53,660 nt of DNA from Terrimonas sp. (lineage in GTDB: Bacteria; Bacteroidota; Bacteroidia; Chitinophagales; Chitinophagaceae), in NCBI RefSeq assembly GCF_003075435.1, contig NZ_QCZJ01000035.1, forward strand, positions 1 to 53,660. The letters are read 5' to 3'. Positions 14,563 to 37,374 of the stretch are shown piece by piece. A program made the position numbers and the translations under genes. Each line of letters begins with the position of its first letter. The first letter of the stretch is position 1. The notes below the pieces were generated by a model that was not told where the DNA came from, ran no database searches, and worked only from the letters and a program-made list of their open reading frames with translations.

Positions 14563-15444
14563 ATGCCAGGCGCATTAAAAGAGGTTCGTAATCGTATAAA
14601 ATCAGTACAAAGTACACAGCAAATTACCAAAGCCATGAAAATGGTGAGCGCGGCAAAGCTGCGTCGTGCCCAGGATGCTATTATCCAAATGCGTCCTTAT
14701 GCACAGAAGCTGCAGGAAATGCTGAGCAATATCGTGAGTAATACAGATGGCGATACCGGCGCTGATCTTGCGGTAGAGCGTACCCCTGAAAAAGTGTTAT
14801 TGATTGTAATTTCTTCCGACAGGGGATTATGTGGCGCTTACAATGCCAATATCATCAAATCTGCCCGTAATGTGGCGCAGGAAAAATATCCCAGACAACT
14901 TGCAAAGGGCAATGTTATTGTTTGGCCGATTGGCAAAAAAGCATACGATTATTTTCAGAAAGCTAAATGGACTGTAATTGATAAGTATAGAGATATATTT
15001 CTTTCTCTTTCTTTTGAACATGTGCAGGAAGTAGCCCAGTCTGCTATTGAAGCCTTTTCCAAAAAAGAATTTGATTTGGTGGAGGTTGTGTACAGCGAAT
15101 TCAGGAATGCAGCTACACAGCGTTTTGTAGTGGAAAGATTTTTGCCTATTCCTAAAGTAGAAAACAAAGGCAATACCACAAAGGCTGATTTTATTTTTGA
15201 GCCTGATAAACAAACGCTGATTGCAGAACTGATGCCGAAAATATTAAATACACAATTATATAAAGCTGTGCTTGATGCCAATGCCAGCGAACACGGCGCA
15301 AGAATGACGGCGATGGATAAAGCCAGTGAAAACGCAAATGAGCTGTTGAAAGGTTTGAAAATTTCTTATAACCGTGCACGCCAGGCTGCTATTACAACCG
15401 AGCTTACCGAAATTGTAAGTGGCGCGGCAGCATTACAGGGATAA
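14563..15444 (+). CDS. atpG: F1F0 ATP synthase gamma subunit
   Basis: The rotor shaft of the F1 sector. The 293-residue protein has the conserved N-terminal coiled-coil MPGALKEVRNRIKSVQSTQQ and ITKAMKMVSAAKLRRAQ, the Rossmann-like middle (VLLIVISSDRGLCGAYNANI), and the C-terminal coiled-coil ASEHGARMTAMDKASENANE with ARQAAITTELTEIVSGAAAL. No other atp gene is adjacent. Bacteroidota usually carry atpG next to atpA, so this copy appears detached from its operon. A direct repeat AACTAATTA occurs twice just upstream. Confidence 0.96.
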   Translation: MPGALKEVRNRIKSVQSTQQITKAMKMVSAAKLRRAQDAIIQMRPYAQKLQEMLSNIVSNTDGDTGADLAVERTPEKVLLIVISSDRGLCGAYNANIIKSARNVAQEKYPRQLAKGNVIVWPIGKKAYDYFQKAKWTVIDKYRDIFLSLSFEHVQEVAQSAIEAFSKKEFDLVEVVYSEFRNAATQRFVVERFLPIPKVENKGNTTKADFIFEPDKQTLIAELMPKILNTQLYKAVLDANASEHGARMTAMDKASENANELLKGLKISYNRARQAAITTELTEIVSGAAALQG

Positions 15445-15521
15445 CCTGGATATTGGCATAATAATGAAATGAATTATGCCCGGCACGATTTTTTGAGTTT
15501 ATATATTTGAGTTAGCCTCTC

Positions 15522-16304
15522 ATGGAAATTTCACAGATCATACCACATATAGAAGCATTGATATTTGCCAGTGAAAAGCCTTTAACAAGTCTTGAACTGG
15601 CTGATCTTGTAAACCAGGCTTTGGGTTTTATTGAAGACCGGGCTACTATGGACCAGGTTGATTCAGCCATACAGGGCATTCGCGAAAAATACGCCAGTGA
15701 ATTTTATCCTTTTGAAGTAAGGCAGAGTGGGGGAGGATGGCAATTTCTTACCAAAGCAGAATACCATAAAACCATTGGTCAATTAAATGGTGATAAGTTT
15801 TTAAAACGGCTTTCAGCCGCAGCAATGGAAACACTTGCCATTATTGCTTATAAGCAGCCTATCACAAAGGGAGAAGTTGAGGCCATACGCGGAGTAAACT
15901 GCGATTATGTTGTGCAAAAACTTTTGGAAAAAGATCTTGTGGTTATTACCGGCAGAAATGAAGCGCTTCCTGGTAAGCCATTGATATATGCTACCTCAAA
16001 ATCCTTTATGGATTATTTTGGTATCAACTCTGCTGATGATCTTCCTAAAATAAAAGAAATATTGGCTGAACAGGTTGTAGAGCCAACATTGGTAAATGCT
16101 GAACATTTTGAGGTAGAAGCCGAGAGTAATTTAAGAGTAGGGGAAAATGGTGAATTGCTGGAGAAACAACTGGATGAGGCGCAGCCCTATGATAATGTGA
16201 TTACTGATGATAGTAACATCACCAATGAGCAGGATAATAGCGAAATGGATGATGATAATACTGATCAAACGCAGGAAGATGATAATACTAGTAAGGATGA
16301 ATAG
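15522..16304 (+). CDS. scpB: Segregation and condensation protein B
   Basis: ScpB is the winged-helix kleisin partner of the SMC-ScpA condensin. The 260-residue protein has two winged-helix domains: the first begins EISQIIPHIEALIFASEKPLT, the second contains ETLAIIAYKQPITKGEVEAI followed by RGVNCDYVVQKLLEKDLV and LPGKPLIYATSKSFMDYFGI, all diagnostic. The last about 70 residues form an acidic low-complexity tail rich in D, N and E, longer than in typical ScpB. No scpA or smc is adjacent. A terminator follows. Confidence 0.93.
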   Translation: MEISQIIPHIEALIFASEKPLTSLELADLVNQALGFIEDRATMDQVDSAIQGIREKYASEFYPFEVRQSGGGWQFLTKAEYHKTIGQLNGDKFLKRLSAAAMETLAIIAYKQPITKGEVEAIRGVNCDYVVQKLLEKDLVVITGRNEALPGKPLIYATSKSFMDYFGINSADDLPKIKEILAEQVVEPTLVNAEHFEVEAESNLRVGENGELLEKQLDEAQPYDNVITDDSNITNEQDNSEMDDDNTDQTQEDDNTSKDE

Positions 16305-16899: not shown

Positions 16900-18579
16900 A
16901 TGGCTGAAAAAAAATCCTTATTTGCATACGCAAAAAAAGACATCGTTTCCGGGCTTATTGTTTTCCTTATTGCATTACCACTTTGTTTAGGTATTGCGCA
17001 GGCGTCTAATGCTCCGCTTTTCTCAGGAATAGTGGCAGGCATCATTGGTGGTATTGTTATTGGTTACCTCAGTAAATCGCAGTTGAGCGTTAGCGGGCCC
17101 GCGGCGGGTTTGGTGTCAATAGTTGTTGGTGCTTTAGCAGAGCTGCAGGCATTTGAAATTTTTGTATGCGCTGTAATGCTGGCCGGTCTTTTTCAGGTAT
17201 TACTTGGTTTTTTAAAGGCTGGTACATTTGCTAATTTCTTTCCTTCCAGTGTTATTGAAGGGATGCTGGCAGGTATTGGTCTTACTATTATTTTTAAGCA
17301 GTTACCTGATGCTGTGGGGTATAACGGACCAGATCAGTTGATTGGTATGCGTGATGGTGAACGGGGTATGAATTTTGAAATTCTTACCGGTATTACAGAT
17401 CATATTAAAATCGGGGCACTCCTGATCACAGTGATCGGAATAGCAATACTTGCTTTATGGCAAACAAAAAGAATGAAGAAATTTCAATTGATCCCGGCAG
17501 GGTTACTGGTTGTTTTAATAGGTACATTCTTGAATATGCTGTTTAAAACTACTGCCGGAACGCTTCATCTCGATGATGAGTTCCTGGTACAGCTTAATGT
17601 TCCTACTTCTGCCAAAGACTTTTTTGCACAATTCAGCTTTCCGGATTTCAGCGGATTTTTAAATCCGAAAGTATGGCAGTTCGGAGCCATCATTGCCGTG
17701 GTGGCATCAATAGAAACATTACTCTGTATTGAAGCAACTGATAAGCTCGATCCTATGAAACGGAATACATCGGGCAATGCGGAATTGAAAGCGCAGGGAA
17801 TTGGTAATATGCTTAGCGGTCTTATCGGAGGCTTACCTATTACATCTGTAATTGTGCGCTCAAGCGCCAATATCAATGCAGGCGCCAAATCTAAACTCTC
17901 CGCTATTTTTCATGGTGTATTGCTTTTAACTTGTGTTGCATCTATTCCGGCCATTTTAAATTATATACCAAAATCCGCCCTTGCCGCCATTTTGATATAT
18001 ACAGGGTTCAGACTTGCCCGTCCTGCATTATTCAGGCATATGTATAAAGTAGGACCAACAGAATTTATACCGTTTGTGGTAACTGCCGTAGCTGTAGCAC
18101 TTCCTTTCCTCGGCTTATTAAAAGGTGTTGCAATAGGATTTGTGATCAATATATTTTATTTATTAAGGGCTAATATGCGGATACCTTATTATTACCGCAG
18201 GGTGCAATCTGATAACGGAGATATTACCCGTCTTGAGTTGGCACAGGAAGTATCTTTCCTGAATAAAGGAAGTATAAAAGAAACATTTGGCTCAATTGCT
18301 GATGGAAGCACTGTAATTATTGATGCTTCTAAATCGGAGTATATAGACTATGATGTGCTTGAAGAGATCCGTGAGTTTCACGATGTGCAGGCGCCTAACA
18401 GGAATATCACTGTTTCGCTGGTAGGGTTCAGGAATGATTATAAAATTCCCCAGGGTTCAAATGTACACTACCAGATGATGGACGAACTGGCTTCAGATAA
18501 AACTGCAAAAACATCAGCAGGAAAACATAAAAAATTACTCAGGGAGCTGAATGCAGGAAGGCCTCCTGTAAATGAATGA
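16900..18579 (+). CDS. SulP family inorganic anion transporter with STAS domain
   Basis: A 559-residue inner-membrane protein with the SulP core (about 10-12 membrane segments, residues 12-425) and a C-terminal STAS domain (about 440-530; GSTVIIDASKSEYIDYDVLEEI). Family motifs are VSGLIVFLIALPLCLGIAQA at the start, LSVSGPAAGLVSIV, and GLPITSVIVRSSANINAGAK. SulP members carry sulfate, bicarbonate or other anions; the sequence does not decide which. The bicarbonate branch is often labelled this way in Bacteroidota, and no carbonic anhydrase is adjacent. A strong terminator closes the gene. Confidence 0.93.
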   Translation: MAEKKSLFAYAKKDIVSGLIVFLIALPLCLGIAQASNAPLFSGIVAGIIGGIVIGYLSKSQLSVSGPAAGLVSIVVGALAELQAFEIFVCAVMLAGLFQVLLGFLKAGTFANFFPSSVIEGMLAGIGLTIIFKQLPDAVGYNGPDQLIGMRDGERGMNFEILTGITDHIKIGALLITVIGIAILALWQTKRMKKFQLIPAGLLVVLIGTFLNMLFKTTAGTLHLDDEFLVQLNVPTSAKDFFAQFSFPDFSGFLNPKVWQFGAIIAVVASIETLLCIEATDKLDPMKRNTSGNAELKAQGIGNMLSGLIGGLPITSVIVRSSANINAGAKSKLSAIFHGVLLLTCVASIPAILNYIPKSALAAILIYTGFRLARPALFRHMYKVGPTEFIPFVVTAVAVALPFLGLLKGVAIGFVINIFYLLRANMRIPYYYRRVQSDNGDITRLELAQEVSFLNKGSIKETFGSIADGSTVIIDASKSEYIDYDVLEEIREFHDVQAPNRNITVSLVGFRNDYKIPQGSNVHYQMMDELASDKTAKTSAGKHKKLLRELNAGRPPVNE

Positions 18580-19681: not shown

Positions 19682-20095
19682 ATGAGTGATATATTATCCT
19701 TCATTCCCCAACGGCCGCCATTTGTAATGGTTAGTGAAATTATTAAGGCAGATGCACAGGCTTGTACAACAAAATTTCTTGTTGATGCGGATAATATTTT
19801 TATGAACAATGGGTTTTTAGGCGAACCGGCTTTGGTGGAGAATATAGCTCAAACTGCAGCAGCTCATACGGGTTATCTGTGCAGTAAAAAAAATGAACCC
19901 GTGCCGGTAGGCTTTATCGGGGCAGTACAACAGTTGGAGGTATTTGCACTTCCTTCAGTTAACGATATACTTGAAACGGAAATTACTGTAAAGAACCAGG
20001 TATTGAATGTTGCGCTTATTTCCGGCAAAATAACCTGCAGGCAAAAACCAGTAGCACAATGTGAAATGAAAATTTTTATTCAACCTGATAAATAA
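19682..20095 (+). CDS. ApeP-like 3-hydroxyacyl-ACP dehydratase (hotdog fold)
   Basis: A 137-residue hotdog protein related to the dehydratases of aryl-polyene and flexirubin pathways. It opens SDILSFIPQRPPFVMVSEII, the counterpart of the PHRxPF loop of FabZ, and has the helix ALVENIAQTAAAHTGYLC carrying the expected acidic residue. The GHFPG stretch that holds the catalytic His in FabZ is replaced by NGFLGEP, as in the ApeP-type subgroup. Nine bases separate it from the next gene. It is the first gene of the cluster and probably works on ACP-bound polyene intermediates. Confidence 0.72.
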   Translation: MSDILSFIPQRPPFVMVSEIIKADAQACTTKFLVDADNIFMNNGFLGEPALVENIAQTAAAHTGYLCSKKNEPVPVGFIGAVQQLEVFALPSVNDILETEITVKNQVLNVALISGKITCRQKPVAQCEMKIFIQPDK

Positions 20096-20104
20096 ATATA
20101 CAAT

Positions 20105-20746
20105 ATGAAACGTATACTCAAATCATCACTGCTTTTGCTTTTTATAGTACTGGTTGCAGGCGTTCAGCAAGTCTCAGCCCAGTCACTTAAAGAGTTCTTC
20201 AATTCTTCTGAGGTGCCTCTTACTTACCTCGGCGTTGATTTTACCAGGGCCAAAATTTTAAATGAGGTTGCAGTGAACAACATGGACATAAGAGACAGGC
20301 AGTTCCCGGCCATTAACCAGGTAATTATTAATGAACCCAAGAAATATGATTTCCAGAAAGCATTTTCAAAAACTACTGTTAATAATGATATCGCGTTGGT
20401 GAATGCAAAAAATGCAAAAATTGATGCTGAAAAGCTGGTTGAGTCAGGCTCTGATGCGGTACACCTGAAAAAAGCGGATATTGATGTGATAGTTAAAAGT
20501 TATGACTTTGGTGGTAAAAAAGGCATCGGCCTAATGTTTATTATGGAAAGCATGAATAAAGCAAGCGCAGAAGCCTCAATGTACGTTACGCTGATCGATT
20601 TGTCGAGCCGTAAGGTATTGCTTACTGAAAGGATGACGGCTAAAGCTGCTGGTTTTGGTTTTAGAAACTATTGGGCTAAAACAATATACGAAGTACTTGC
20701 TGATATAAAAAAATCGAAATACAAAGAGTGGAAGGCAGCCAATTGA
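20105..20746 (+). CDS. Secreted protein of unknown function in the polyene-type cluster
   Basis: A 213-residue protein with a signal peptide (hydrophobic LLLLFIVLVAGVQQVSAQ, cleavage after A-Q). The mature part (SLKEFFNSSEVPLTYLGVDF, a KKADIDVIVKSYDFGGKKGI strand region and RKVLLTERMTAKAAGFGFRN) looks like an alpha/beta periplasmic protein. No named family is recognised. It forms a two-gene unit with the dehydratase upstream and is closed by a terminator, so it is separated transcriptionally from the rest of the cluster. A link to pigment assembly at the envelope is inferred from position only. Confidence 0.6.
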   Translation: MKRILKSSLLLLFIVLVAGVQQVSAQSLKEFFNSSEVPLTYLGVDFTRAKILNEVAVNNMDIRDRQFPAINQVIINEPKKYDFQKAFSKTTVNNDIALVNAKNAKIDAEKLVESGSDAVHLKKADIDVIVKSYDFGGKKGIGLMFIMESMNKASAEASMYVTLIDLSSRKVLLTERMTAKAAGFGFRNYWAKTIYEVLADIKKSKYKEWKAAN

Positions 20747-20770
20747 TATTATATATACTTTTAAAATGCG

Positions 20771-20805
20771 AAAGTGAAAGATTTACAGGCATCTTTCACT
20801 TTTTC
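20771..20805 (+). terminator. Rho-independent terminator after the first two cluster genes
   Basis: A perfect 12-bp stem (AAAGTGAAAGAT and complement) with an eight-base loop runs into five T. It divides the cluster into a short first unit and a long second unit starting at 20861. Confidence 0.8.
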
Positions 20806-20860
20806 ATTTAATTTAGTGCCCTTTTAAAAGCGTTCAGTCACACGAAAGAATAATTTATAA

Positions 20861-21286
20861 ATGCAAAAGACCTTATCCGGCAGGATTGAAATAAATGTCA
20901 GGTTTAATGAAGCAGATCCGTTGGGTATAGTGTGGCACGGGCACTATGTTCGTTATTTTGAAGATGGCCGTGAAGCCTTTGGCAATGAGCATGGTATTGG
21001 TTATCTTGATTTTTACAAAAAAGGCTATGTCATACCCATTGTAAGTATTCAATGTGATTATAAACGTTCTTTAAAATATGGTGAAAGAGTGATCGTGGAA
21101 ACGACTTTTGTTCCCTGCGATGCGGCTAAATTAAAATTTGAATACAGGCTATTTAATGCCGGAACCAAACAGGTTGTAGCTACAGGTTCTTCTGTGCAGG
21201 TGTTTTTAGAAAAAGAAAATTCGGTATTGCAACTAACTAATCCGGATTTTTTTGAAGAATGGAAAGCGCAAAATGGACTGATATAA
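20861..21286 (+). CDS. Acyl-CoA/ACP thioesterase, YbgC/4HBT family
   Basis: A 141-residue hotdog thioesterase. The signature RFNEADPLGIVWHGHYVRYF carries the catalytic Asp of the 4-hydroxybenzoyl-CoA thioesterase family, followed by GREAFGNEHGIGYLDF and a core strand region (VIPIVSIQCDYKRSLKYGER). Such enzymes release acyl chains from CoA or ACP. It begins the long operon of the cluster (15 bases to the next gene), where it could off-load or edit the polyene chain. Confidence 0.85.
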   Translation: MQKTLSGRIEINVRFNEADPLGIVWHGHYVRYFEDGREAFGNEHGIGYLDFYKKGYVIPIVSIQCDYKRSLKYGERVIVETTFVPCDAAKLKFEYRLFNAGTKQVVATGSSVQVFLEKENSVLQLTNPDFFEEWKAQNGLI

Positions 21287-21301
21287 TTTTTAACCAGACT
21301 A

Positions 21302-22435
21302 ATGAACCCGGTTTATATTATTGCTGAAAATATTGTTTCTCCGATTGCTGGTACCGCGCTGGATAATTTCACCTTATTGAAAGAAGGCAGATCCGGTATA
21401 CAACAGCATAATATACCGCGCTTTTCTCCTGAGCCTTTTTTTGCCTCATTGTTTCCGGAAGAAAGTTTTGTAAGCGATAATGTATACACGAAATTTGAAC
21501 AGTTGCTGATAGCATCTGTAAGTGATGCATTGTCGCTGACAAATATTAATCCCGCTGATGAAAGAACAGGTTTAATTATTTCCTCTACCAAAGGCAATAT
21601 CAGTTTGCTTGAAACCAGTACGCAGAACGAAGCGCTGGTGAAAAGGATGTCCCTGCCTGTATCTGCAAAACTTATTGCGGAACACTTTAAGGTCGTCAAT
21701 AAACCCATAATTGTTTCTCATGCCTGTATTTCAGGATTGGTTGCATTGATCACAGGCATGCGCATGATTCAGTCAGGCAAATATGATCATGTAATTGTTG
21801 CCGGCGCGGATATCATCACGCAATTTATACTTTCCGGTTTCCAGTCTTTTCATGCCATCAGTAACCAGGCTTGTAAACCTTTTGATGCGAACCGCACCGG
21901 TATTAACTTGGGCGAAGCAGCAGCCACTATTATTCTTTCTTCCCAAAAACCCAAAGGAAAAGAAGCTATAGTGCTCAATGGTGGTGCTGTAAGCAATGAC
22001 GCCAATCATATTTCAGGTCCCTCAAGAACCGGCGAAGAATTGTACCAGGTAATACAGCAGAGCATGCAGGAATCAGGGATTGATGCTACAGAGGTTGATT
22101 TTATTTCGGCACACGGCACAGCCACAATGTATAATGATGAAATGGAAGCCAGGGCCTTTAACCTTGCAGGCTTGCAGGATGTACCGTTGAATAGCCTGAA
22201 AGGATATTATGGACATACGCTTGGCGCTGCAGGATTGATAGAAACAGTTGCCTCTGTTTTATCTTTAAAAGAAAACGTAGTTTTACCCACTCCCGGCTTT
22301 GATACACCAGGCACAACCAAACCCGTTAATGTGAACAGGCAATTGAAGCAGGGAATATATAATGCATGCCTTAAAACTGCCTCTGGCTTCGGCGGCTGTA
22401 ATGCGGCAATAGTTTTGAAAAAAATAAACATATAA
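21302..22435 (+). CDS. Beta-ketoacyl-ACP synthase (KAS II-like), complete active site
   Basis: A 377-residue thiolase-fold condensing enzyme. The Cys-His-His triad is intact: Cys142 in SHACISG, His271 in SAHGTATMYND and His305 in GYYGHTLGAAG. The C-terminal TASGFGGCNAAIVLK loop is also typical. It would extend ACP-bound chains by two carbons using malonyl-ACP. It is one of two apparently active ketosynthases in the cluster. In aryl-polyene systems separate ketosynthases act at different stages; which stage applies here cannot be told from sequence. Twenty bases separate it from the methyltransferase. Confidence 0.9.
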   Translation: MNPVYIIAENIVSPIAGTALDNFTLLKEGRSGIQQHNIPRFSPEPFFASLFPEESFVSDNVYTKFEQLLIASVSDALSLTNINPADERTGLIISSTKGNISLLETSTQNEALVKRMSLPVSAKLIAEHFKVVNKPIIVSHACISGLVALITGMRMIQSGKYDHVIVAGADIITQFILSGFQSFHAISNQACKPFDANRTGINLGEAAATIILSSQKPKGKEAIVLNGGAVSNDANHISGPSRTGEELYQVIQQSMQESGIDATEVDFISAHGTATMYNDEMEARAFNLAGLQDVPLNSLKGYYGHTLGAAGLIETVASVLSLKENVVLPTPGFDTPGTTKPVNVNRQLKQGIYNACLKTASGFGGCNAAIVLKKINI

Positions 22436-22455
22436 AAAGATAACAGAACGTTTTC

Positions 22456-23526
22456 ATGGAATTTTATACAAAAGATACTAAGACAGCACTAGAAGCTAAG
22501 CATCTCGCTCAATTTATTGCATTCGGACCCGTGGTTTTCCAGGTGGCAAAAGTGGTTAGAGATAACGGTATTTTAAAAGCTATTGAAGATAGCGCCAGCA
22601 ATGGTTTAACTATTGAAGAGATCATTGAGAAAACCGGTGTATCGCGTTATGGCGTAAGGGTATTGCTTGAATCTTGTTTAGGCATTGGTTTGATACTGCT
22701 GAATGATGGCAGGTATACTATTACAAAAACAGGTTATTTTATACTGCACGACCCATTGACCAAAGTAAATATGGATTTTGTGCATGATGTATGTTATAAG
22801 GGCTTATTTCATCTTGATAAAAGTATTGAAACCGGTAAACCCGAAGGCTTGAAGGAACTCGGTAATTGGGCAACGGTGTATGAGGGTTTGTCTCAACTGC
22901 CACCACATATTCAGAAAAGCTGGTTTGGCTTTGATCATTTCTTTTCAGACATCGCTTTTCCTTTGGTGATTAAGCATGTATATAAAGATGGCATTAAGAA
23001 CCTGCTTGAAATTGGAGGTAATACCGGGAAGTGGGCCATTGCTTCTGCAAAACATGCCGATGATATACATGTTACCATAATGGATTTGCCGGGCCAACTG
23101 GAAATGGCGAAAAAGAAAATGGAAGAACTCGGGCTTTCTGACCGGGTATCATTTCACCCTGTAAACATATTGGATGAATCCCAGCCTTTTCCAAAGGGAT
23201 TTGATGCCATCTGGATGAGCCAGTTCCTGGATTGTTTTTCTGAAGAGGAAATTGTGTCAATATTGAAACGTTGCGCAAATGCCATAGATGAAAATGGCTA
23301 TGTGCTTATCCTGGAAGCATTCTGGGATACACAGCGTTTCGAAACCGCAGCATTCTGCCTGCAGCAAACATCCATTTATTTTACAGCACTGGCAAATGGT
23401 AACAGCCAGATGTATGATTCAAAAGTTTTTAAGCAATGTATATATGACGCGGGTTTTGAAATTGTGGAGCAGGTTGATAATATCGGGCTTAGTCATACAT
23501 TGCTGAAATGCAGGAAGAGGAAATAG
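22456..23526 (+). CDS. SAM-dependent O-methyltransferase-like protein with winged-helix N-domain
   Basis: A 356-residue class I methyltransferase. An N-terminal dimerisation/winged-helix domain (about 15-110; LTIEEIIEKTGVSRYGVRVL) precedes the Rossmann domain with SAM motif I LLEIGGNTGKWAIAS (about 185-200), an acidic strand VTIMDLPGQLEMA, and FDAIWMSQFLDCFSEEE. This is the plant-OMT/acetylserotonin-OMT-like layout. Flexirubin-type pigments often carry ring methyl groups, so methylation of an aryl head is a sensible guess. The general base of true O-methyltransferases was not clearly identified. A heptanucleotide array follows. Confidence 0.82.
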   Translation: MEFYTKDTKTALEAKHLAQFIAFGPVVFQVAKVVRDNGILKAIEDSASNGLTIEEIIEKTGVSRYGVRVLLESCLGIGLILLNDGRYTITKTGYFILHDPLTKVNMDFVHDVCYKGLFHLDKSIETGKPEGLKELGNWATVYEGLSQLPPHIQKSWFGFDHFFSDIAFPLVIKHVYKDGIKNLLEIGGNTGKWAIASAKHADDIHVTIMDLPGQLEMAKKKMEELGLSDRVSFHPVNILDESQPFPKGFDAIWMSQFLDCFSEEEIVSILKRCANAIDENGYVLILEAFWDTQRFETAAFCLQQTSIYFTALANGNSQMYDSKVFKQCIYDAGFEIVEQVDNIGLSHTLLKCRKRK

Positions 23527-23529
23527 GGG

Positions 23530-23702
23530 TAGCGGTCAGCAGTCAGGTATCAGCAGTCAGCTATCAGCAGTGAGCTATGAGCAGCGGGTTTTCAGTTAAT
23601 TGCTTAAAGCTATCAGGTATGATGTGAGATGTTGACCTGGCATCGGCCAATAGCAAACTGTTAATCGCTGACCGCTCAAAGCCCAATGCTCACCGCTAAT
23701 CT
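23530..23702. repeat. Inverted heptanucleotide array (CAGTCAG/CTATCAG type)
   Basis: The left arm splits without remainder into CGGTCAG, CAGTCAG, GTATCAG, CAGTCAG, CTATCAG, CAGTGAG, CTATGAG. The right arm (about 23665-23700) reads CTGACCG, CTCAAAG, CCCAATG, CTCACCG. The array fills the whole gap between the methyltransferase and halogenase-like genes, and the arms are roughly complementary. Confidence 0.75.
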
Positions 23703-23717
23703 CTTTAAACTAAATAT

Positions 23718-24974
23718 ATGCAAACAGAAAAAACAGATGTACTGGTAATTGGTGCGGGGCCTTCCGGAACCGTTGCCGCATCTATCGTTCACCAGGAAGG
23801 CTACAAAGTAAGGATAGTAGAAAAATTAAAATTTCCCCGCTTTGTAATAGGGGAAAGTTTGCTGCCCCGATGTATGGAGGCATTGGAAGAAGCTAAATTC
23901 CTTGATGCGGTGAAGGCAAGGGGGTTCCAGGAAAAAAACGGAGCCAAGTTTGTTAAGAATGGTAAGGTATGTGATTACCAGTTTGCAGACCAGTTTACAC
24001 AGGGCTGGAAATGGACATGGCAGGTTCCCCGTGCAGATTTTGATAATACGCTTGCTACGGAAGTTGAAAAGATGGGCGTACCGGTTGAATATGAAACTAC
24101 CGTTACCGGTATTGTTTTTAATGATGACGGAAGATCCGTAACAACGGTTGAAGATAACAACGGCAATAAGAAACATATTGAAGCAAGATTTATTATAGAC
24201 GGAAGTGGCTACGGAAGAGTGATACCAAAGCTGTTCAACATGGAGCGTCCTTCCAATCTTCCGCCACGTAAAGCATTGTTTGCACATACTATTGATAAAA
24301 AGCGTTCAATGGCAGACGAGCCGAACCGTATTACGATTGTAGTGCATAAAAAAGGTGTATGGATATGGATCATACCATTTTCTAACGGCATTACATCGGT
24401 TGGCTTTGTGGGCGACAGGGAGTTTTTTGATGGTTTTGAAGGAACGGACGAAGAAAAATACCGGGCAATGCTTGCAGGTGAAAAAGATATTGCTGAAAGA
24501 TTTAAAGATGTTGAACTGGTATTCCAGCCAAGAACATTAGAGTCATGGTCTGCCACCACAGATAAATTTTATGGAGATGGTTTTGTGCTTACAGGCAATG
24601 TTACCGAGTTTCTTGACCCGGTATTTTCATCAGGCGTTACATTGGCAACGGTTTCAAGCCAACTGGCAGGAAAACTTGTGGTAAGAAAACTGAAAGGCGA
24701 AACAATAGATTGGAATGCATCATATATGGATATTATGTTGCAGGGTGTAAATACATTCCGCTCATATGTAATGGCATGGTACGAAGGCACACTGGATACT
24801 ATCTTCTTTGCAGACGATCAGGATCCTTTGATCAAAAGCCAGATTTGTTCAGTGCTGGCAGGATATGTTTGGGATACCACAAATCCCTATGTAAAAGATC
24901 ATACCACCGCACTGCATAAATTGGCGCGCATTATTAAAATGAGAGATGATTTAAGAGCAGGAGGAATGAAATAA
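23718..24974 (+). CDS. Flavin-dependent halogenase-like FAD oxidoreductase
   Basis: A 418-residue FAD enzyme of the tryptophan/phenol halogenase superfamily. The FAD motif GAGPSG is at 12-17, GESLLP at 45-50, and a Lys in EKNGAKF at about 73, where phenolic halogenases carry a conserved Lys. The halogenase signature W-x-W-x-I-P is present as WIWIIP at 215-220, and FLDPVFSSG at 298-306 matches the F-x-P-x-F-S-x-G motif. Both signatures together favour halogenation over simple hydroxylation. Chlorinated flexirubins are known, so chlorination of an aryl ring is plausible. Similar proteins in these clusters are sometimes called oxidoreductases, and activity is unproven. Confidence 0.82.
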   Translation: MQTEKTDVLVIGAGPSGTVAASIVHQEGYKVRIVEKLKFPRFVIGESLLPRCMEALEEAKFLDAVKARGFQEKNGAKFVKNGKVCDYQFADQFTQGWKWTWQVPRADFDNTLATEVEKMGVPVEYETTVTGIVFNDDGRSVTTVEDNNGNKKHIEARFIIDGSGYGRVIPKLFNMERPSNLPPRKALFAHTIDKKRSMADEPNRITIVVHKKGVWIWIIPFSNGITSVGFVGDREFFDGFEGTDEEKYRAMLAGEKDIAERFKDVELVFQPRTLESWSATTDKFYGDGFVLTGNVTEFLDPVFSSGVTLATVSSQLAGKLVVRKLKGETIDWNASYMDIMLQGVNTFRSYVMAWYEGTLDTIFFADDQDPLIKSQICSVLAGYVWDTTNPYVKDHTTALHKLARIIKMRDDLRAGGMK

Positions 24975-24999
24975 GCGTGGTGGAAGGTATAGCGGCTAA

Positions 25000-25136
25000 G
25001 AAGTTACAGGTTTAAGGTTGCAAGTACATACACCAGCTCACTATTTAGCAATATGTTTTTAGTTTAGGTACCTGTAACCTGAAACCCGTAACTTGCAATC
25101 TTGCAGCCATTGCCTATTCACTATTGTCCATTGCAA
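25000..25136. repeat. Heptanucleotide arrays (AAGTTAC/ACCTGTA and ATTGCCT types)
   Basis: The left arm reads AAGTTAC, AGGTTTA, AGGTTGC, AAGTACA. The right arm reads ACCTGTA, ACCTGAA, ACCCGTA, ACTTGCA and is roughly complementary. A third run follows directly: ATTGCCT, ATTCACT, ATTGTCC, ATTGCAA. The last unit reaches the presumed TTG start of the next gene. Confidence 0.75.
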
Positions 25137-25760
25137 CACATCACCACATATAGCACTATTTCAGGTAATGCCGCTTCAAAAGACGGTACTGTTTTGTTTG
25201 AGGAGCAATCATTATCTCCGCAAGAGTTCCTTCTTTCTTTATACAAGTATCTGCAGGCTGATTATCCAAAATATTATAAAATGGATAATCTGTGTAAGCT
25301 TGGCTTTTTAGCTACGGAAATATTGTTGCAAAACAGGAATGTTGCGGAAGAATATGGAAAAGCAGGAGCGGGTGTTGTGCTGAGTAATGCCAATGCAAGC
25401 CTTGATGCGGACATTGCTTATTTTGAAACAGTGAAAAATATACCAAGCCCTGCCCAATTTGTGTATACTTTGCCTAATATTGTGATCGGCGAAATCAGCA
25501 TCAGGCATGGTTTAAAAGGAGAAAATGCTTTTTTTGTGTCTGAAGATTTTGATGCGGCATGGCTGGAGTTTTATGTAAACGATCTGTTTAAAAGAAAAAC
25601 AATAGATTGCTGTATTGCAGGCTGGGTAGATTTTTTAGGAGGGTCATATAAGGCTGTACTTTATTTGGTGGAAAATCGCTCAACAGAACGATCTTTGCCG
25701 TGGGAAACTGAACATATTAATAAAATATACGAGTTAGCAAATGGAAAAGTTAATGGCTGA
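25131..25760 (+). CDS. Beta-ketoacyl synthase N-terminal-like domain protein
   Basis: A protein of about 209 residues related to the stand-alone ketosynthase N-terminal domain (PF13723-type) found in aryl-polyene/flexirubin clusters. Recognisable parts are LCKLGFLATEILLQ, FVYTLPNIVIGEISIRHGLKG followed by ENAFFVSEDFD, and CCIAGWVDFLGGSYKAVLYL. The usual nucleophilic Cys context and C-terminal half of a ketosynthase are absent, so it is probably structural. No ATG fits: the frame opens at 25092, and TTG 25131, at the edge of the repeat array, is preferred over TTG 25101. Its end overlaps the ACP gene by 20 bases. Confidence 0.7.
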   Translation: MQHITTYSTISGNAASKDGTVLFEEQSLSPQEFLLSLYKYLQADYPKYYKMDNLCKLGFLATEILLQNRNVAEEYGKAGAGVVLSNANASLDADIAYFETVKNIPSPAQFVYTLPNIVIGEISIRHGLKGENAFFVSEDFDAAWLEFYVNDLFKRKTIDCCIAGWVDFLGGSYKAVLYLVENRSTERSLPWETEHINKIYELANGKVNG

Positions 25761-26004
25761 TCTGAAGCGACAGATCATTGAACAGTTAAACCTGAAAGAT
25801 TTAAAACCTGAGGATATTGGTGATGACCAGCCTTTATTTGTTGAGGGACTTGGACTGGATTCTATTGATGCTCTTGAACTGATCGTATTACTTCAGCAGG
25901 AATATAAAATTAAGCTTGCCAGTGCTGAAGAAGGACAAAGCGTGTTCCGTTCAGTAAGGACAATGGCACAATATATTACGGAGCATCAACCGAAAACGGT
26001 GTAG
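25741..26004 (+). CDS. Acyl carrier protein
   Basis: An 87-residue acidic carrier protein. The phosphopantetheine attachment Ser lies in GLGLDSIDALELIVLLQQ. The four-helix ACP pattern is otherwise complete (MADLKRQIIEQLNLKDLKPE at the start, MAQYITEHQP at the end). It overlaps the preceding gene, so the two are translationally coupled. In this cluster it would carry the growing polyketide or polyene chain for the adjacent ketosynthases and dehydratases. It is separate from the housekeeping acpP, judged by context only. Confidence 0.92.
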   Translation: MEKLMADLKRQIIEQLNLKDLKPEDIGDDQPLFVEGLGLDSIDALELIVLLQQEYKIKLASAEEGQSVFRSVRTMAQYITEHQPKTV

Positions 26005-26009
26005 TGAGG

Positions 26010-26130
26010 TAGAAGGTGTAAGTAGGGTAGAAGGGAAAGGGTTTTGCGTTTGTGGTTTGTAGTTTACGAAACCTCTAACCATAAACAACAAACCATAAAC
26101 CACAAATATCTCAAATTTCAAATTTCAAAT
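26010..26130. repeat. Inverted heptanucleotide array (GTTTGTG/AAACCAT type) with a TCAAATT run
   Basis: The left arm reads GTTTGTG, GTTTGTA, GTTTACG; the right arm AAACAAC, AAACCAT, AAACCAC, AAATATC. TCAAATT then occurs three times in tandem. The same sequence type occurs at 13081-13171. GTGAGGT, AGAAGGT units at about 26004-26020 belong to the same class as 6971-7023. Confidence 0.72.
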
Positions 26131-26134
26131 CTTC

Positions 26135-27340
26135 TTGACTAAACCGGTTTTTATTACAGGTGCAGGCGTAATATCTGCCATTGGCAACAATGTGCAGGAG
26201 AATCTTGCTGCACTTGAAAATGGAAAAGCCGGTATGGCAAAAATGGAATATCTTTCTTCTGCTCATAAAGAAAAGTTGCCGGTAGCTGAGGTAAAGATGA
26301 ATAATGAAGCGCTGGCAGCACTTGCAGGAATGCCTGCACATATCAGCCGCACGGCATTGCTTTCCGCTATTGCTGCAAAAGCAGCAATACAAAACGCGGG
26401 ACTGGAAAGCCTCAAAGGTTTACGCAGTGGCTTTATCTCTGCCAACACAGTAGGCGGGATGGATAAAACAGAAGATTTTTTCACGGATTTTTTAAGTGAT
26501 CCACAAAAAGGAAGATTAAGAAACCTGGTACATCATGAATGTGGCGCTGCGACAGAACTGGTGGCTGATGTGCTTGGTATAAAAAATTATGTATCTACAA
26601 TAAGTACAGCCTGTTCATCTTCGGCCAACGCGGTGTTCTATGCTGCAAGACTTATCAAACAAAATATCCTGGATATTGCTATAGCCGGTGGCACGGATTC
26701 GCTCACAAAATTCACCCTCAATGGCTTTAATACATTGATGATACTTGATCAGCAGTATTGCCAGCCTTTTGATGAAAACCGGCGTGGACTGAATTTGGGT
26801 GAAGGGGCAGGATATGTTGTGCTGGTTTCTGAAAAAGTAGTACAAACGTTAAAGCAAAATCCTGTTTGCACATTAAGCGGGTATTGTAATGCCAATGATG
26901 CATATCATCAAACTGCATCTTCACCTGATGGAACAGGTTCTTATCTTGCTATGAAAGGAGCACTTGAACAAAGCGGGCTAAACCCTGCTGATATTGATTA
27001 TATTAACCTTCATGGCACAGGCACACAGAATAACGATATAGCTGAAGGCACAGCCATTAAATTATTGTTTGAAGGTAAGTATCCGAAGATGAGCTCAACC
27101 AAATCATTTACAGGGCATACACTTGGTGCAAGCGGTGGTATTGAAGCGGTGTTTTCTGTACTGGCATTACAGTATGGACTGATTTATCCCAATCTCCGTT
27201 TTGAAACGCAGATGGCAGCGCTGCCTTTTGCTCCTGAAACCATTTTCCGCAAAGGAGAAAAAGTAAATCATGTGCTGTCAAACTCATTTGGCTTTGGCGG
27301 TAATTGTTCTTCACTCATTTTTTCAAAACTGCAGGCATAA
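26135..27340 (+). CDS. Beta-ketoacyl-ACP synthase (KAS II-like), catalytic partner of the next gene
   Basis: A 401-residue ketosynthase with the full triad: Cys160 in STACSSSANAV, His293 in LHGTGTQNNDIAEG and His328 in SFTGHTLGASGG. The start TKPVFITGAGVISAIGNNVQ is the usual KAS N-terminus and requires a TTG start, as no ATG fits. Its stop overlaps the start of the next ketosynthase-like gene by one base, the arrangement typical of a ketosynthase and chain-length-factor pair forming a heterodimer. It is probably the main elongating enzyme of the cluster. Confidence 0.92.
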   Translation: MTKPVFITGAGVISAIGNNVQENLAALENGKAGMAKMEYLSSAHKEKLPVAEVKMNNEALAALAGMPAHISRTALLSAIAAKAAIQNAGLESLKGLRSGFISANTVGGMDKTEDFFTDFLSDPQKGRLRNLVHHECGAATELVADVLGIKNYVSTISTACSSSANAVFYAARLIKQNILDIAIAGGTDSLTKFTLNGFNTLMILDQQYCQPFDENRRGLNLGEGAGYVVLVSEKVVQTLKQNPVCTLSGYCNANDAYHQTASSPDGTGSYLAMKGALEQSGLNPADIDYINLHGTGTQNNDIAEGTAIKLLFEGKYPKMSSTKSFTGHTLGASGGIEAVFSVLALQYGLIYPNLRFETQMAALPFAPETIFRKGEKVNHVLSNSFGFGGNCSSLIFSKLQA

Positions 27341-28377
27341 TGTATATTAAAGCGGCCGCAGCCATATCACCCCAGGTTTCGTTTGAGCAGATACTGCAAT
27401 CACCGGCATCCTATAATAGCAACAGGTTGAATTGTGCAGAGCCTGATTATACCAAATTATTTGATGCACGCATAATAAGGCGCATGAGCCGTATTATTAA
27501 AATGGGCGTTGCAACAGCGAAAGATTGTTTACATCAGGCAGATGTACAAAGCCCCGGTGCAATTATAACCGGAACAGCTTATGGTTGTCTTGCCGATACG
27601 GAATTGTTTTTATCTAAAATGGTAGAGAATAAAGAAGAACTGCTTACACCTACAGCATTTATTCAATCTACCCATAATACCGTTGGTGCACAGATAGCGT
27701 TGATGCTTAAATGCCATAACTATAATAATACATTTGTGCATCGTGGGTTTTCCTTTGAAAGCGCTATGCTGGATGCTATAACATTATTACATGAAAATGC
27801 AGTTGAAGATGTATTGGTTGGTGGTGTGGATGAAATAACAGATACCAGTCATACATTACTGAGCCGTTTCGGTTTATATAAACAACATGCTTTTTCTAAT
27901 CTTGATTTGTATAACAACCATTCAAAAGGAACTATAGCGGGCGAAGGAGCAGGGTTCTTTTTGTTGTCAAAAAAAACTACCGGTAACAGCTATGCAAAGC
28001 TGGATGATATGGCTACTTTGTATAAACCTTCTTCACCCGGGGAAGTAGCTGGTTTCGTGAATGATTTTTTGCATAGAAATAATATCAGGGCAGGGGATAT
28101 CGGTTTGCTGGTATCCGGCGAAAATGGAGATGCCGCTAATGATAAATGGTATGCAGATATGAAGAAGACATTGTTTAATGATACTGCAACACAAGCTTTC
28201 AAACATTTTTGCGGCGAATATCCAACAGCACCGGCTTTTGCATTATGGCTGGCTGCCAATATTATGAAAACGGGTAAAATACCCGCGCATAAAAAAATAA
28301 AAGCGCCCGGAAAAATATTGATCTATAATCATTATCTTACTATTCATCACTCATTATACCTGCTTTCTGCATGTTAA
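27340..28377 (+). CDS. Ketosynthase-like chain-length-factor protein (no active-site Cys)
   Basis: A 345-residue thiolase-fold protein starting MYIKAAAAISPQVSFEQILQ. It retains TGTAYGCLADTELFLSKMVE, TPTAFIQSTHNTVGAQIAL and the GEGAGFFLL segment, but at the nucleophile position it reads VHRGFSFESAML, with no Cys. The downstream His motifs are also degenerate. This is what is expected of a chain-length factor that pairs with an active ketosynthase, here the gene immediately upstream (one-base overlap). ATG 27340 is used rather than an upstream ATG inside that gene. The end overlaps the deacetylase gene by seven bases. Confidence 0.8.
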   Translation: MYIKAAAAISPQVSFEQILQSPASYNSNRLNCAEPDYTKLFDARIIRRMSRIIKMGVATAKDCLHQADVQSPGAIITGTAYGCLADTELFLSKMVENKEELLTPTAFIQSTHNTVGAQIALMLKCHNYNNTFVHRGFSFESAMLDAITLLHENAVEDVLVGGVDEITDTSHTLLSRFGLYKQHAFSNLDLYNNHSKGTIAGEGAGFFLLSKKTTGNSYAKLDDMATLYKPSSPGEVAGFVNDFLHRNNIRAGDIGLLVSGENGDAANDKWYADMKKTLFNDTATQAFKHFCGEYPTAPAFALWLAANIMKTGKIPAHKKIKAPGKILIYNHYLTIHHSLYLLSAC

Positions 28378-29144
28378 GATTCAATACCATCACCGCTATA
28401 TTTGTTGTGCTGCTGATAGCGCTTATAGGTATACATTTTTTCTACGGATTTTCCTATTATGTGTTTGCCATACTGCTGGTGCTGTATGCGGCAGCACTCG
28501 CCTATGGGAGTTATAATGTACGCTCCAACTTTTATGTAAAAACCATCAGTTCTGCCAACACACCGCTTAAACAAATTGCTATCAGTTTTGATGATGGTCC
28601 TGCTAAAGATTATACCCCACAGATATTACAGATACTCAAAGAACATGAAGTGAAGGCAGCTTTTTTTTGTATAGGCAAACGTATTAAAGAGAACGAAGAC
28701 TTACTGAAACAGGTACACGAAGAAGGGCATATTATCGGTAATCACAGTTATTCGCATGATCTGTGGTTTGATCTTTTTTCTGCTAAAAAAATGTATGAAG
28801 ATCTGCAGATGATGAATAGTGTGATGGAAAAAACTATTGGCAAAAAACCTAAACTTTTTCGCCCGCCTTATGGTGTTACCAATCCGAATTTGAAAAAAGC
28901 CATACAGCAGGGCAGGTATATTACAGTTGGCTGGAATATACGCTCTATGGATACAGTGGTAAAAGACGCCCGCAAATTACTCGCAAAAGTTACGGCTTCG
29001 TTAAAACCCGGCGCCGTGGTTTTATTTCATGATACCAGCAAAACTACGCTGGATATACTTTCCGCGTTCATTAAGCAAGCCAGGGAAATGGGGTACGATA
29101 TTGTGCGGTTGGATAAATTGCTTAATTTGGAGCCTTATGCGTAG
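28371..29144 (+). CDS. Membrane-anchored NodB-type polysaccharide deacetylase
   Basis: A 257-residue protein with two N-terminal membrane segments (about 8-24 and 27-46) and a NodB carbohydrate-esterase-4 domain. The catalytic Asp-Asp is in AISFDDGPAKDYTPQ, the metal-binding His pair in GNHSYSHDLWFD, and the conserved RPPYG and VLFHD motifs are present. The active site should face the periplasm. CE4 genes accompany many flexirubin-type clusters, where their substrate is unknown. It overlaps genes on both sides, so it is firmly within the operon. Confidence 0.9.
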   Translation: MLRFNTITAIFVVLLIALIGIHFFYGFSYYVFAILLVLYAAALAYGSYNVRSNFYVKTISSANTPLKQIAISFDDGPAKDYTPQILQILKEHEVKAAFFCIGKRIKENEDLLKQVHEEGHIIGNHSYSHDLWFDLFSAKKMYEDLQMMNSVMEKTIGKKPKLFRPPYGVTNPNLKKAIQQGRYITVGWNIRSMDTVVKDARKLLAKVTASLKPGAVVLFHDTSKTTLDILSAFIKQAREMGYDIVRLDKLLNLEPYA

Positions 29145-29772
29145 CATTTTTTTATTAGGGTATATATTGATGTCTAGCCTTGTTGCCAATGCGCAATATT
29201 CCGGTTACAAACCTGTGGCAGACGCTGCCGCTTTTAAAGTGCAGTTCGCGGAAGCATCTAAAAAAACAAACGCTATTAAAAGTGATTTTGTGCAGGAAAA
29301 GAACCTGAGTTTACTGGCCGAAAAAATCACATCAAAAGGAAAATTCTGGTTTAAAAAAGATAACCTTGTGCGCATGGAATATACTCAACCTTTTCAATAC
29401 CTCATGATATTAAATGGCACGAATGTATATGTAAAAGACAGCCAGAAGGAGAATAAGGTATCTGTAAAATCAAACAAGCTGTTTCAGCAGATCAATAAAA
29501 TAATGGTGGATTGCGTAAAAGGCGAAGCTTTGCAGAGTGGCGATTTTACCGTAAAGGTTTTTGAAAATAGCAGTACCTATCTGGCGGAGCTCATACCTGT
29601 AGATAAGAATATGAAAAAGCTTTTCAAAAATATCAACATGATCATTGAGAAGAAAAGCTTTGGCGTTACTGCAATTGAAATGCATGAGCCTTCGGGTGAT
29701 AATACTGTTATCAATTTTGTGAATCGTGAACTGAATACCAATCTTCCTGATGCGTTATTTACTATTCATTAG
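29137..29772 (+). CDS. LolA-like outer-membrane lipoprotein carrier protein
   Basis: A 211-residue periplasmic protein with a signal peptide (MRSIFLLGYILMSSLVANAQ). The mature part follows the LolA pattern: SKKTNAIKSDFVQEKNLSLL, SKGKFWFKKDNLVRMEYTQP with YLMILNGTNVYVKD, and a late INMIIEKKSFGVTAIEMHEP strand pair. LolA-like proteins in aryl-polyene and flexirubin clusters are thought to escort the lipid product across the periplasm. ATG 29137 overlaps the deacetylase stop by eight bases and gives a proper signal peptide; an upstream ATG at 29029 would not. Confidence 0.87.
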   Translation: MRSIFLLGYILMSSLVANAQYSGYKPVADAAAFKVQFAEASKKTNAIKSDFVQEKNLSLLAEKITSKGKFWFKKDNLVRMEYTQPFQYLMILNGTNVYVKDSQKENKVSVKSNKLFQQINKIMVDCVKGEALQSGDFTVKVFENSSTYLAELIPVDKNMKKLFKNINMIIEKKSFGVTAIEMHEPSGDNTVINFVNRELNTNLPDALFTIH

Positions 29773-30373
29773 TATAGTTTTATACTGCACAGCCTGTTCA
29801 TCTTCCTACAAAGCATTGCAGCGCACGGAAGCAGATCCTTCTTGTGTAAAAAAGTTTAAACCTGCATTTGCAACCGCTTTATATACTACACAGGTTGATG
29901 TGATCGGTAAACATTTAAGCGGCTTGCTTATTATAAAAACAATGCCCGACAGTAGTGTGCGTATGGTATTTTCCAATGAAGCAGGGTTTAAATTTTTTGA
30001 TTTTGGATTTGAGCAGGATGACTTCAAAGTGTATTATGTTTTCGACCAGATGGATAAAAAAGCCGTGATTAAAACATTGCGCAAAGATTTTGAGCTGGTA
30101 TTGATGCGCCATCTTGATGCACAGCAATCGTATACGGCAAAAGAAAGCCAGGGTTTGTATCATGTTTTCCCGGATGGCAGGGACATATACTATTATATTA
30201 CCGACGGTGCCTGCGATAGTTTAATACGTATGGAACGTGGCAGCAAACGTAAAAAAGTAGTAGAAGCTTTAATTAAGCCAGGAGCTGATAATGTGCCGGA
30301 TAGCATTGGAATAAGGCATTATAATTTTAATTTTGATATACAGCTAAAACGCCTGCAAAGAGATGCTCAATAA
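29750..30373 (+). CDS. Lipoprotein of unknown function in the polyene-type operon
   Basis: A 207-residue protein with a lipoprotein signal (MRYLLFISIVLYCTACSSSY; lipobox T-A-C). The mature part has alternating strands (ATALYTTQVDVIGKHLSGLL, MVFSNEAGFKFFDFGFEQDD) similar in pattern to small lipoproteins seen beside LolA-like genes in aryl-polyene clusters. The start lies 23 bases inside the LolA-like gene and its end overlaps the dehydratase gene by 11 bases, so it is translationally coupled. It may accept the product at the outer membrane; this is inference. Confidence 0.72.
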   Translation: MRYLLFISIVLYCTACSSSYKALQRTEADPSCVKKFKPAFATALYTTQVDVIGKHLSGLLIIKTMPDSSVRMVFSNEAGFKFFDFGFEQDDFKVYYVFDQMDKKAVIKTLRKDFELVLMRHLDAQQSYTAKESQGLYHVFPDGRDIYYYITDGACDSLIRMERGSKRKKVVEALIKPGADNVPDSIGIRHYNFNFDIQLKRLQRDAQ

Positions 30374-30725
30374 TGATTTTTTTTATACAAGATCAATCAG
30401 CAATGAGGATAACAATATTATTGCTGAATTGCAATTGAATCCTGCGCACAAAATATTTGAAGGACATTTTCCCGGTCAGCCGGTAGTGCCCGGCGTTTGC
30501 CAGGTGCAGATGATAAAAGAAATCCTTGAAACAGCTTTGGACTATAATCTTCAGCTAAAATCAGCCGATCATATAAAGTTTCTCTCTGTTATAATTCCTG
30601 ATCATTCTGCTGTTGTTAAGGCGGTAATAAAGTATACCGAAGAAGAAAATGGCCTATCCGTAACGGCTTCCCTTGCAAAAGAAGACAGGATTTGTTTAAA
30701 GTTCAAAGGAATATTTCAATCCTGA
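30363..30725 (+). CDS. FabZ-like 3-hydroxyacyl-ACP dehydratase (hotdog fold)
   Basis: A 120-residue hotdog protein with the canonical dehydratase core LNPAHKIFEGHFPGQPVVPG, containing the catalytic His of GHFPG, then VCQVQMIKEILETAL in place of the usual helix with Glu. This is the last gene of the operon. With the ApeP-like dehydratase at the start of the cluster it forms a pair, one with and one without the His, as is usual for polyene assembly. A MITE-like element follows 17 bases after the stop. Confidence 0.8.
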   Translation: MLNNDFFYTRSISNEDNNIIAELQLNPAHKIFEGHFPGQPVVPGVCQVQMIKEILETALDYNLQLKSADHIKFLSVIIPDHSAVVKAVIKYTEEENGLSVTASLAKEDRICLKFKGIFQS

Positions 30726-32037: not shown

Positions 32038-32079
32038 TAATAAACCTGCGCAACAAATATTTGTAAATCAGGATGAGAT

Positions 32080-32913: not shown

Positions 32914-32941
32914 AGTTTTCTGGTTACAGGTAATCATTGTT

Positions 32942-34533: not shown

Positions 34534-34694
34534 GTGTATGCTGTTATAGTGTATACAAAAAATTAAACTGAATTAAAATTTGAATGATCACAAAAGATTT
34601 ATATTTAATTAACCGGTAAATTTCTCCTGAATAATTGTTATTGTTTTATAGCCAGGAGAAACGCCGATGAAATTCTTTGTTCACCCTTTGTGTA

Positions 34695-34725
34695 TTTTGT
34701 GAATGAAAAATTTCATGTACGTTTG
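34695..34725 (+). promoter_or_regulatory. Candidate Bacteroidota-type promoter of the Rrf2 gene
   Basis: TTTTG at 34695-34699 is followed after 18 bases by TACGTTTG (34718-34725), an exact TAnnTTTG -7 element. The predicted start of transcription lies about 10 bases before the ATG at 34743. Confidence 0.6.
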
Positions 34726-34742
34726 ATAAGTAAAATGAAAAG

Positions 34743-35174: not shown

Positions 35175-35185
35175 TTTTTTTAACC

Positions 35186-35216: not shown

Positions 35217-35219
35217 AAT

Positions 35220-37364: not shown

Positions 37365-37374
37365 AATAAGAATA

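Follow-up and report, generated by a model that had tools for sequence, protein, structure and literature searches.

A probably complete flexirubin pathway spread over three contigs of a Terrimonas genome

Flexirubins are yellow-orange membrane pigments of Bacteroidota. Here we examine a 53,660-nucleotide stretch of Terrimonas sp. DNA (hereafter the window; contig NZ_QCZJ01000035.1, or C35, of assembly GCF_003075435.1, a genome of 6,175,289 bases in 82 contigs), in which an earlier reading of the letters alone (the original prediction) had placed a partial flexirubin- or aryl-polyene-like cluster at positions 19682-30725. Homology makes it highly probable that the flexirubin pathway of this genome is complete but spread over three contigs, with the window holding its central block (flxF-flxS). 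The pathway is an ordinary one whose genes have been moved apart, and its gene content is already known.

The identification stems from a comparison with Chitinophaga pinensis, for which the portion of the published account considered here (PMC3992019) reports a flxA-flxY cluster with separate dar genes and assigns dehydratase roles to FlxF and FlxS and ketosynthase (KS) roles to FlxC, FlxI, FlxL, FlxN and FlxO. When the Terrimonas proteins were aligned by tblastn to the C. pinensis assembly (L139, L205), they matched as A to S in order, followed by T, U, V (CrtI-like), W (C45 acyltransferase-like), X (a protein of 120 aa) and Y. FlxJ is also an NCBIfam name, and the remaining flx letters are a count along this gene run. 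By this gene-for-gene correspondence the window appears to carry flxF-flxS, that is 14 of the 25 flx genes, in the C. pinensis order, which bears out the flexirubin-type assignment and settles the gene-order comparison that the original prediction had proposed. The two species share all 25 flx genes, with the order kept inside each block (save that Y precedes A here); they differ in that flxA-flxY form one run in C. pinensis, with the dar genes apart, whereas in Terrimonas flxY-A-E, flxF-S and flxT-X plus dar occupy three contigs.

The ammonia lyase, acyl ligase, ketoreductase, MMPL exporter and DarA/DarB had been reported as absent from the window, and genome-wide searches with PF00221 (lyases), PF03176 (MMPL) and PF08541 (KAS III) agreed for these three families, giving no match on C35. 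One of the two lyase genes recovered with PF00221 lies on contig C26 and encodes the candidate tyrosine ammonia-lyase FlxA (850 bits, cut-off 700), which stands beside the ligase FlxY (672 bits, cut-off 520) and the ketoreductase FlxB (402.7 bits, cut-off 340) in the order flxY-A-B-C-D-E, with a KS, an acyl carrier protein (ACP) and an acyltransferase following FlxB at the C-D-E positions. On contig C14 we found DarB (637.4 bits, cut-off 550), DarG (188.8 bits) and DarH (462.2 bits), all above their cut-offs, and, on the strand opposite to dar, a glycosyltransferase, a 1279-aa MMPL-acyltransferase-methyltransferase protein and homologues of V, W and X (the flxT-X block). The darA candidate is a 303-aa open reading frame (ORF) immediately before darB, placed by position only, with homologues at 53-54% likewise placed in genomes G141, G096 and G212. 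A further MMPL gene, on C9, was set aside once the T-X block had been located on C14. The genome has further KAS III genes, and one stretch of C19 gave no match to flx or dar genes. The second ammonia-lyase gene of the genome (L002, G000:C11:112988-114358) probably encodes a histidine ammonia-lyase; it contains one in-frame TGA and is a pseudogene or carries a sequencing error.

Thus, the genes missing from the window were found on other contigs (DarA by position), and the type II polyene set is made up of F, I, L, M, N, O and S in the window and B, C and D on C26. From the original proposal that the pathway was either split or of a different, reduced type, the first half stands (Y-E on C26, T-X plus dar on C14) and the second does not. 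A reduced or different aryl-polyene type making no flexirubin would agree with the lack of starter lyase, exporter and dar genes inside the window, and reduced types do occur in relatives; we nevertheless hold it to be very improbable, because homologues of all 25 flx genes, together with darB, darG and darH, are present in the genome and make the predicted pathway complete in gene content. A place of the ketosynthases in ordinary fatty acid synthesis is even less credible: FabF-family models do match them, but FlxN and FlxI both fall short of the FabF equivalog cut-off (Table 1), and their homologues occupy the flx loci of many relatives.

Since the genome is a draft in 82 contigs, an assembly artefact was weighed as the source of the split. 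The breaks, however, lie inside contigs (flxE about 15 kb and flxF 19.7 kb from a contig end), and the close relative G203 (L129) repeats both neighbourhoods, with SulP-F...S in one place and the C26 genes beside flxY-E in another (its contig C44 and our C26 have the same genes ahead of flxY). Furthermore, genome G199 (same contigs as G123; 9 contigs) carries Y-E, F-K and L-S on three large contigs, and seven genomes of the family have flxA and flxK more than 160 kb apart on a single contig. The contig-edge explanation was consequently rejected, and an artefact is very unlikely.

For the wider comparison, genes were counted in 195 family genomes (hits taken at E up to 1e-200 for FlxA, up to 1e-100 for FlxK and under 1e-100 for FlxJ), and loci were gathered via flxJ or flxK; the loci are not a random sample, and some of them are one contig taken twice (e.g., L049/L114, L050/L111, L051/L116, L058/L113, L061/L117). 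Across the 93 loci in which flxF was seen, flxE lay within 300 bases of it in 78 and at 1.85 and 3.75 kb in two; in nine it was missing from the visible upstream stretch of 5.8-7.6 kb (in one of them, L056, it is about 8 kb off), and four were undecided near a contig end. Of 124 loci, 60 showed the whole of flxA-flxS, the rest being cut off, split or of other types. Close homologues of FlxK belong to records that carry the labels Chitinophagaceae, Agriterribacter, Terrimonas and Chitinophaga. In the ten related genomes (our own and G195-G203) flxE and flxF are nowhere adjacent: they are 3.7 kb apart in G202 and, by coordinates, roughly 13-21 kb apart in G197, G198, G200 and G201, and they lie on different contigs in our own, G195, G196, G199 and G203.

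The flanks of the flx block suggest how the separation came about. Upstream of flxF the window reads atpG-scpB-SulP-flxF...S (the first two being names that we assume for the landmark pair of Table 1), and the SulP transporter gene occupies the place where G197, G198 and G200 carry flxY-E, so the interval seems to have lost flxY-E. The separation thus probably arose when flxY-E left the interval between atpG-scpB and flxF. Agriterribacter humi (L110/G198) and related metagenome-assembled genomes (MAGs) have the same flx genes in view and the same atpG-scpB landmark, but in them a single contig carries both flxY-E and flxF-S, which in A. humi are separated by about 20 kb. In G202 scpB is about 2 kb from flxA on one contig, and it does not adjoin flx genes in G201, G195, G196 and G199, nor in the outgroups G204-G207, so the landmark is not universal. 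As judged by reading ORF starts, the inserts between flxE and flxF in the relatives hold defence-like, efflux or housekeeping genes; that of A. humi (L190-L191) has restriction-modification-like genes beside an ABC efflux set which resembles one in G197.

Dispersal of flx genes is common in the family. Among the 51 family genomes with both flxA and flxK, 22 have the two genes within 20 kb of each other and two at a distance of 29-46 kb; in seven more they share a contig but are 163-843 kb apart, and in 20 each is on a contig of its own (a number that contig breaks may inflate). In 27 of the 51 the two genes are therefore more than 50 kb apart or on different contigs. After this count we no longer regarded the split as an unusual feature.

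Several observations weigh against the reading of a complete pathway whose genes moved apart. The flexirubin product is predicted here from gene content, and the darA candidate matches no family of Pfam or NCBIfam. The FlxJ score lies 2.5 bits below the model cut-off, yet none of the 195 family genomes reaches that cut-off. For FlxL, the AlphaFold model (mean pLDDT 88.0, low at 115-122) retrieved chains of KS or chain-length factor (CLF) as its top Foldseek matches (best 6kxe_B, query TM 0.56; ApeC 6qsp_B at rank 26) and a profile search returned 6kxd_B at E 0.0089, but hhalign comparisons with FlxN and FlxO gave probabilities of just 0.5 and 4.3, short of significance. Seven Flx proteins from 17 genomes (with some rows incomplete: Niabella lacks four, G202 one) were combined in a tree, which joined our genome with G203 and G195 with G196 at support 100; its backbone is weak (support 37 to 77), and the direction of the rearrangement consequently rests on synteny. 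Finally, C26 and C35 could meet end to end, which would put a distance of at least about 35 kb between flxE and flxF, with both in one orientation.

The original prediction had highlighted the halogenase-like enzyme and the methyltransferase, and had considered a chlorinated pigment. Both genes (flxK and flxJ) occupy the same position in the flexirubin clusters of C. pinensis (L139) and of C. filiformis (L165), where the FlxK motifs are kept as well, and FlxK is, by homology, a standard flexirubin cluster gene rather than one special to the window locus. Because the halogenase-like gene is standard equipment, the chlorination claim falls, and a chlorinated product is not supported for the window locus; the pigment of the FlxK-bearing C. 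pinensis has the formula C43H54O4, devoid of chlorine, and the consulted portion of the account takes it as most likely like the flexirubin of C. filiformis (PMC3992019). Among the 195 family genomes FlxA was found in 60 and FlxK and FlxJ in 54 each, the latter two together in 52 of the 54; both are missing from eight FlxA genomes, FlxK alone from G099 and FlxJ alone from G157. Absent from nine of the 60 FlxA genomes, FlxK was weakened as a candidate for a plain core gene. Two peculiarities of these genes were recorded: a divergent FlxK (47%) in L216 (G157:C66), divergently adjoining A-B-C in a genome without a FlxJ match, and, past flxJ in G006:C7:52308-52661, three additional tandem stretches of 108 bp that match the final 36 positions of the FlxJ model.

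The closest solved chain to FlxK is 3nix_A (E 2.5e-171), deposited as a flavoprotein/dehydrogenase, followed by CmlS and other halogenases. In an alignment of 110 distinct homologues (matches of at least 350 aa, from 118 loci and the window), K73, W215, W217, I219, P220 and N294 were conserved in 110 of 110. K73 aligns with the CmlS lysine that we take to be catalytic, the roles of the other motifs being assumed likewise. With the flavin-dependent halogenases (CmlS, PltA and others) FlxK shares the sequence family, the aligned lysine and WxWxIP; it differs from them in having GNVTEF at the position of CmlS GDAACF and 3nix_A as its nearest solved chain, and its halogenation is putative. It is conceivable, albeit somewhat doubtful, that FlxK is a working ring chlorinase and that the strain makes a chlorinated flexirubin. 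The PF04820 match, the aligned lysine and the invariant WxWxIP would be consistent with this, as would the coincidence of FlxK with FlxJ, expected for ring-tailoring partners. In the parts of the literature at hand, flexirubins of differing chlorination exist (PMC3992019), and in Xanthomonas a halogenase gene in the cluster accompanies brominated pigments, while Lysobacter is without both (PMC3691225). Conversely, C. pinensis has a FlxK with the same motifs and yet a chlorine-free pigment formula, GNVTEF replaces GDAACF, N294 is invariant, and Azoarcus lists a halogenase gene (arcA) with a polyene proposed to be nonbrominated (PMC3949708, as far as consulted).

Natural variants of the cluster offer another view of its organization. 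Five of the eight FlxA genomes without J and K (G054, G055, G062, G096, G144) carry a nine-gene cluster, Y-A-B-F-I-L-N-O-S; G035 and G074 begin like it and end at a contig edge, and G075 is of a different type, with A and B beside dar genes. G055 and G096 have further ACP- or KS-like matches in the adjoining dar region or apart. Conversely, seven loci (L167, L174, L175, L181, L183, L186, L224; four labelled Mucilaginibacter) show B-C-D-E-F-G-H-K-M-N-O-P-Q, five of them also with R and S, and have Y, A, I, J and L out of view; FlxA is absent genome-wide from G112 (L224), the sole genome of this type so searched. FlxI thus follows A and Y: it occurs alongside them in the five nine-gene clusters and is missing, as they are, from the seven loci that keep K. 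G211 and G212 have the cluster divided along nearly the same line. One part holds B, C, D, E, G, J, K, M, P, Q, R and S, together with O in G211; the other holds A, F, I, L and N, to which X and Y are added in G211 and O in G212, and H was seen in neither genome. Together, these variants suggest a link of I and L with the tyrosine starter and of K with the envelope unit.

We tentatively propose, as a possibility short of an even chance, that flexirubin clusters are made of two separable modules, one a tyrosine-polyene unit of nine genes (Y, A, B, F, I, L, N, O, S, in some cases joined by X) and the other an aryl-polyene envelope unit (C, D, E, G, H, K, M, P, Q, R, along with T, U and V). FlxI-FlxL would then be a KS-CLF pair set aside for the coumaroyl starter, and FlxK, its intact halogenase signature notwithstanding, a non-chlorinating or transiently halogenating flavoenzyme of the envelope unit. 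Counting against it, J sits in neither pure type, B and S (of the nine) stand with the envelope genes in G211 and G212, and neither type accommodates L118, L120, L126 or the divergent loci L069-L079 and L081-L085, all within a non-random set of loci; the frequent dispersal and the FlxJ-FlxK coincidence weaken it slightly. The modular reading is the part that would be new. Flexirubin clusters have been sorted into at least five families (PMC9248904) and their diversity is described as taxon-specific (PMC10734526), so that, going by the portions of these two papers considered here, several cluster families are already reported and the types seen here may already be in their data. No description of a three-way split, of the nine-gene type or of the modular reading was found among the titles and abstract openings considered here. 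Outside the two types, the MAG loci L118, L120 and L126 have A-B-J-K together, with F-I, L-O and S not in view (in L120, C, D, E, P, Q and R are on the opposite strand), and the best FlxN homologue of their genomes is just 45-47% identical. G006, which also has a full cluster, carries a second compact one (L221-L222, G006:C51) with A, I, L, M, N, O and Y at 32-60% identity.

In the working of the pathway proposed here, gene identity, order and genome-wide content are observed, and every reaction, the product and the pairings are inferred, with C. pinensis and the aryl-polyene (APE) literature as a guide. FlxA, whose activity, as that of FlxY, is reported as shown in C. pinensis in the consulted part of that study (PMC3992019), would deaminate tyrosine to 4-coumarate, which FlxY would activate. 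FlxI, presumably paired with FlxL, would accept the coumaroyl starter, and FlxN with FlxO (a pairing similarly presumed) would elongate the chain, with FlxB reducing and FlxF and FlxS dehydrating it to an aryl polyene. FlxJ may methylate the ring, and roles in lipid or envelope attachment and export may fall to FlxC-E, G, H, M, P-R, T and U; DarA/DarB would supply the dialkylresorcinol for esterification to the polyene. FlxK is a conserved flavoenzyme with a putative role in the pathway. In the part of the account considered here, proteobacterial APE clusters (E. coli, Xenorhabdus ApeO-ApeC; PMC8253772) similarly have a type II KS with CLF, a ketoreductase, two dehydratases, two ACPs, acyltransferases and a thioesterase; the Terrimonas set is unlike them in its tyrosine/4-coumarate starter, dar genes and FlxK.

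The genes of the window block are listed in Table 1, as obtained by scanning the ORFs of 19682-30725 (14 proteins against Pfam, the first 10 against NCBIfam). The parts originally enumerated (dehydratases, thioesterase, ketosynthases, Cys-less partner, KS-N-like protein, ACP, methyltransferase, FAD enzyme, CE4 deacetylase, LolA-like carrier and lipoprotein) were recovered at their sites, and flxG, at 20105, is a cluster member missing from that list. The description of the genes as mostly overlapping holds from 25101 to 30725, save for a 130-base gap before 26135, and fails upstream, where gaps of 9-191 bases separate them. A fold assignment for FlxG was dropped: despite a model pLDDT of 90.1, the structure search gave weak TolB/PelC-like matches only (query TM about 0.3) and no clear relative. 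Past flxS, positions 31102-38385 encode DUF2249/ScdA_N/hemerythrin and DUF2249/DUF1858 proteins together with large membrane proteins that, by reading, resemble nitric-oxide stress genes and have homologues near flxY-E in G196.

Table 1. Features of the window around and within the flxF-flxS block (all assignments by similarity or position)
Feature	Position	Strand	Evidence
Landmark gene pair upstream of flx block	14563..16304	+	homologous pair directly before flxY in G197, G198, G200
SulP transporter	16900..18579	+	PF00916 E 2e-59; L129 has same order before flxF
flxF, FabZ-like hotdog dehydratase (core polyene)	19682..20095	+	no Pfam match; NCBIfam FabZ models E 9e-6, far under cut-off; 47% to C. 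pinensis, in order
flxG, probably secreted 213-aa protein, signal-like start	20105..20746	+	no Pfam/NCBIfam family
flxH, 4HBT thioesterase	20861..21286	+	PF13279 E 1.2e-19
flxI, ketosynthase with Cys/His/His	21302..22435	+	PF02801 + PF00109; FabF model 175.7 bits (cut-off 493.75)
flxJ, methyltransferase, putative ring methylation	22456..23526	+	NCBIfam FlxJ NF053543 557.5 bits (cut-off 560), E 1e-167
flxK, flavin-dependent halogenase-like FAD enzyme, function putative	23718..24974	+	PF04820; WIWIIP at 215-220, FLDPVFSSG at 298-306
flxL, short Cys-less KS/CLF-like (KS-N-like) protein	25101..25760	+	no Pfam/NCBIfam family; predicted fold matches KS/CLF chains
flxM, acyl carrier protein	25741..26004	+	PF00550 E 5e-10
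flxN, ketosynthase with Cys/His/His	26135..27340	+	NF006618 316.6 bits (cut-off 407); FabF model 262.2 bits (cut-off 493.75)
flxO, Cys-less ketosynthase partner	27304..28377	+	PF13723 E 6.8e-10
flxP, CE4 polysaccharide deacetylase	28371..29144	+	PF01522 E 1.4e-35
flxQ, LolA-like carrier	29029..29772	+	PF03548 E 4.4e-18; true start probably near 29137, by reading
flxR, small lipoprotein-like protein	29750..30373	+	no Pfam family; position kept in other flx loci
flxS, ApeI-like hotdog dehydratase (core polyene)	30363..30725	+	PF22818 E 3.7e-9

A flexirubin locus that looks partial on one contig can belong to a complete pathway and, as such separation is common in the family, cluster-finding on draft genomes will undercount or misname flexirubin loci. 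The nine-gene clusters and the loci that retain the envelope genes without those of the tyrosine starter, in turn, would make starter uptake, the role of FlxK and envelope attachment testable by means of natural variants.

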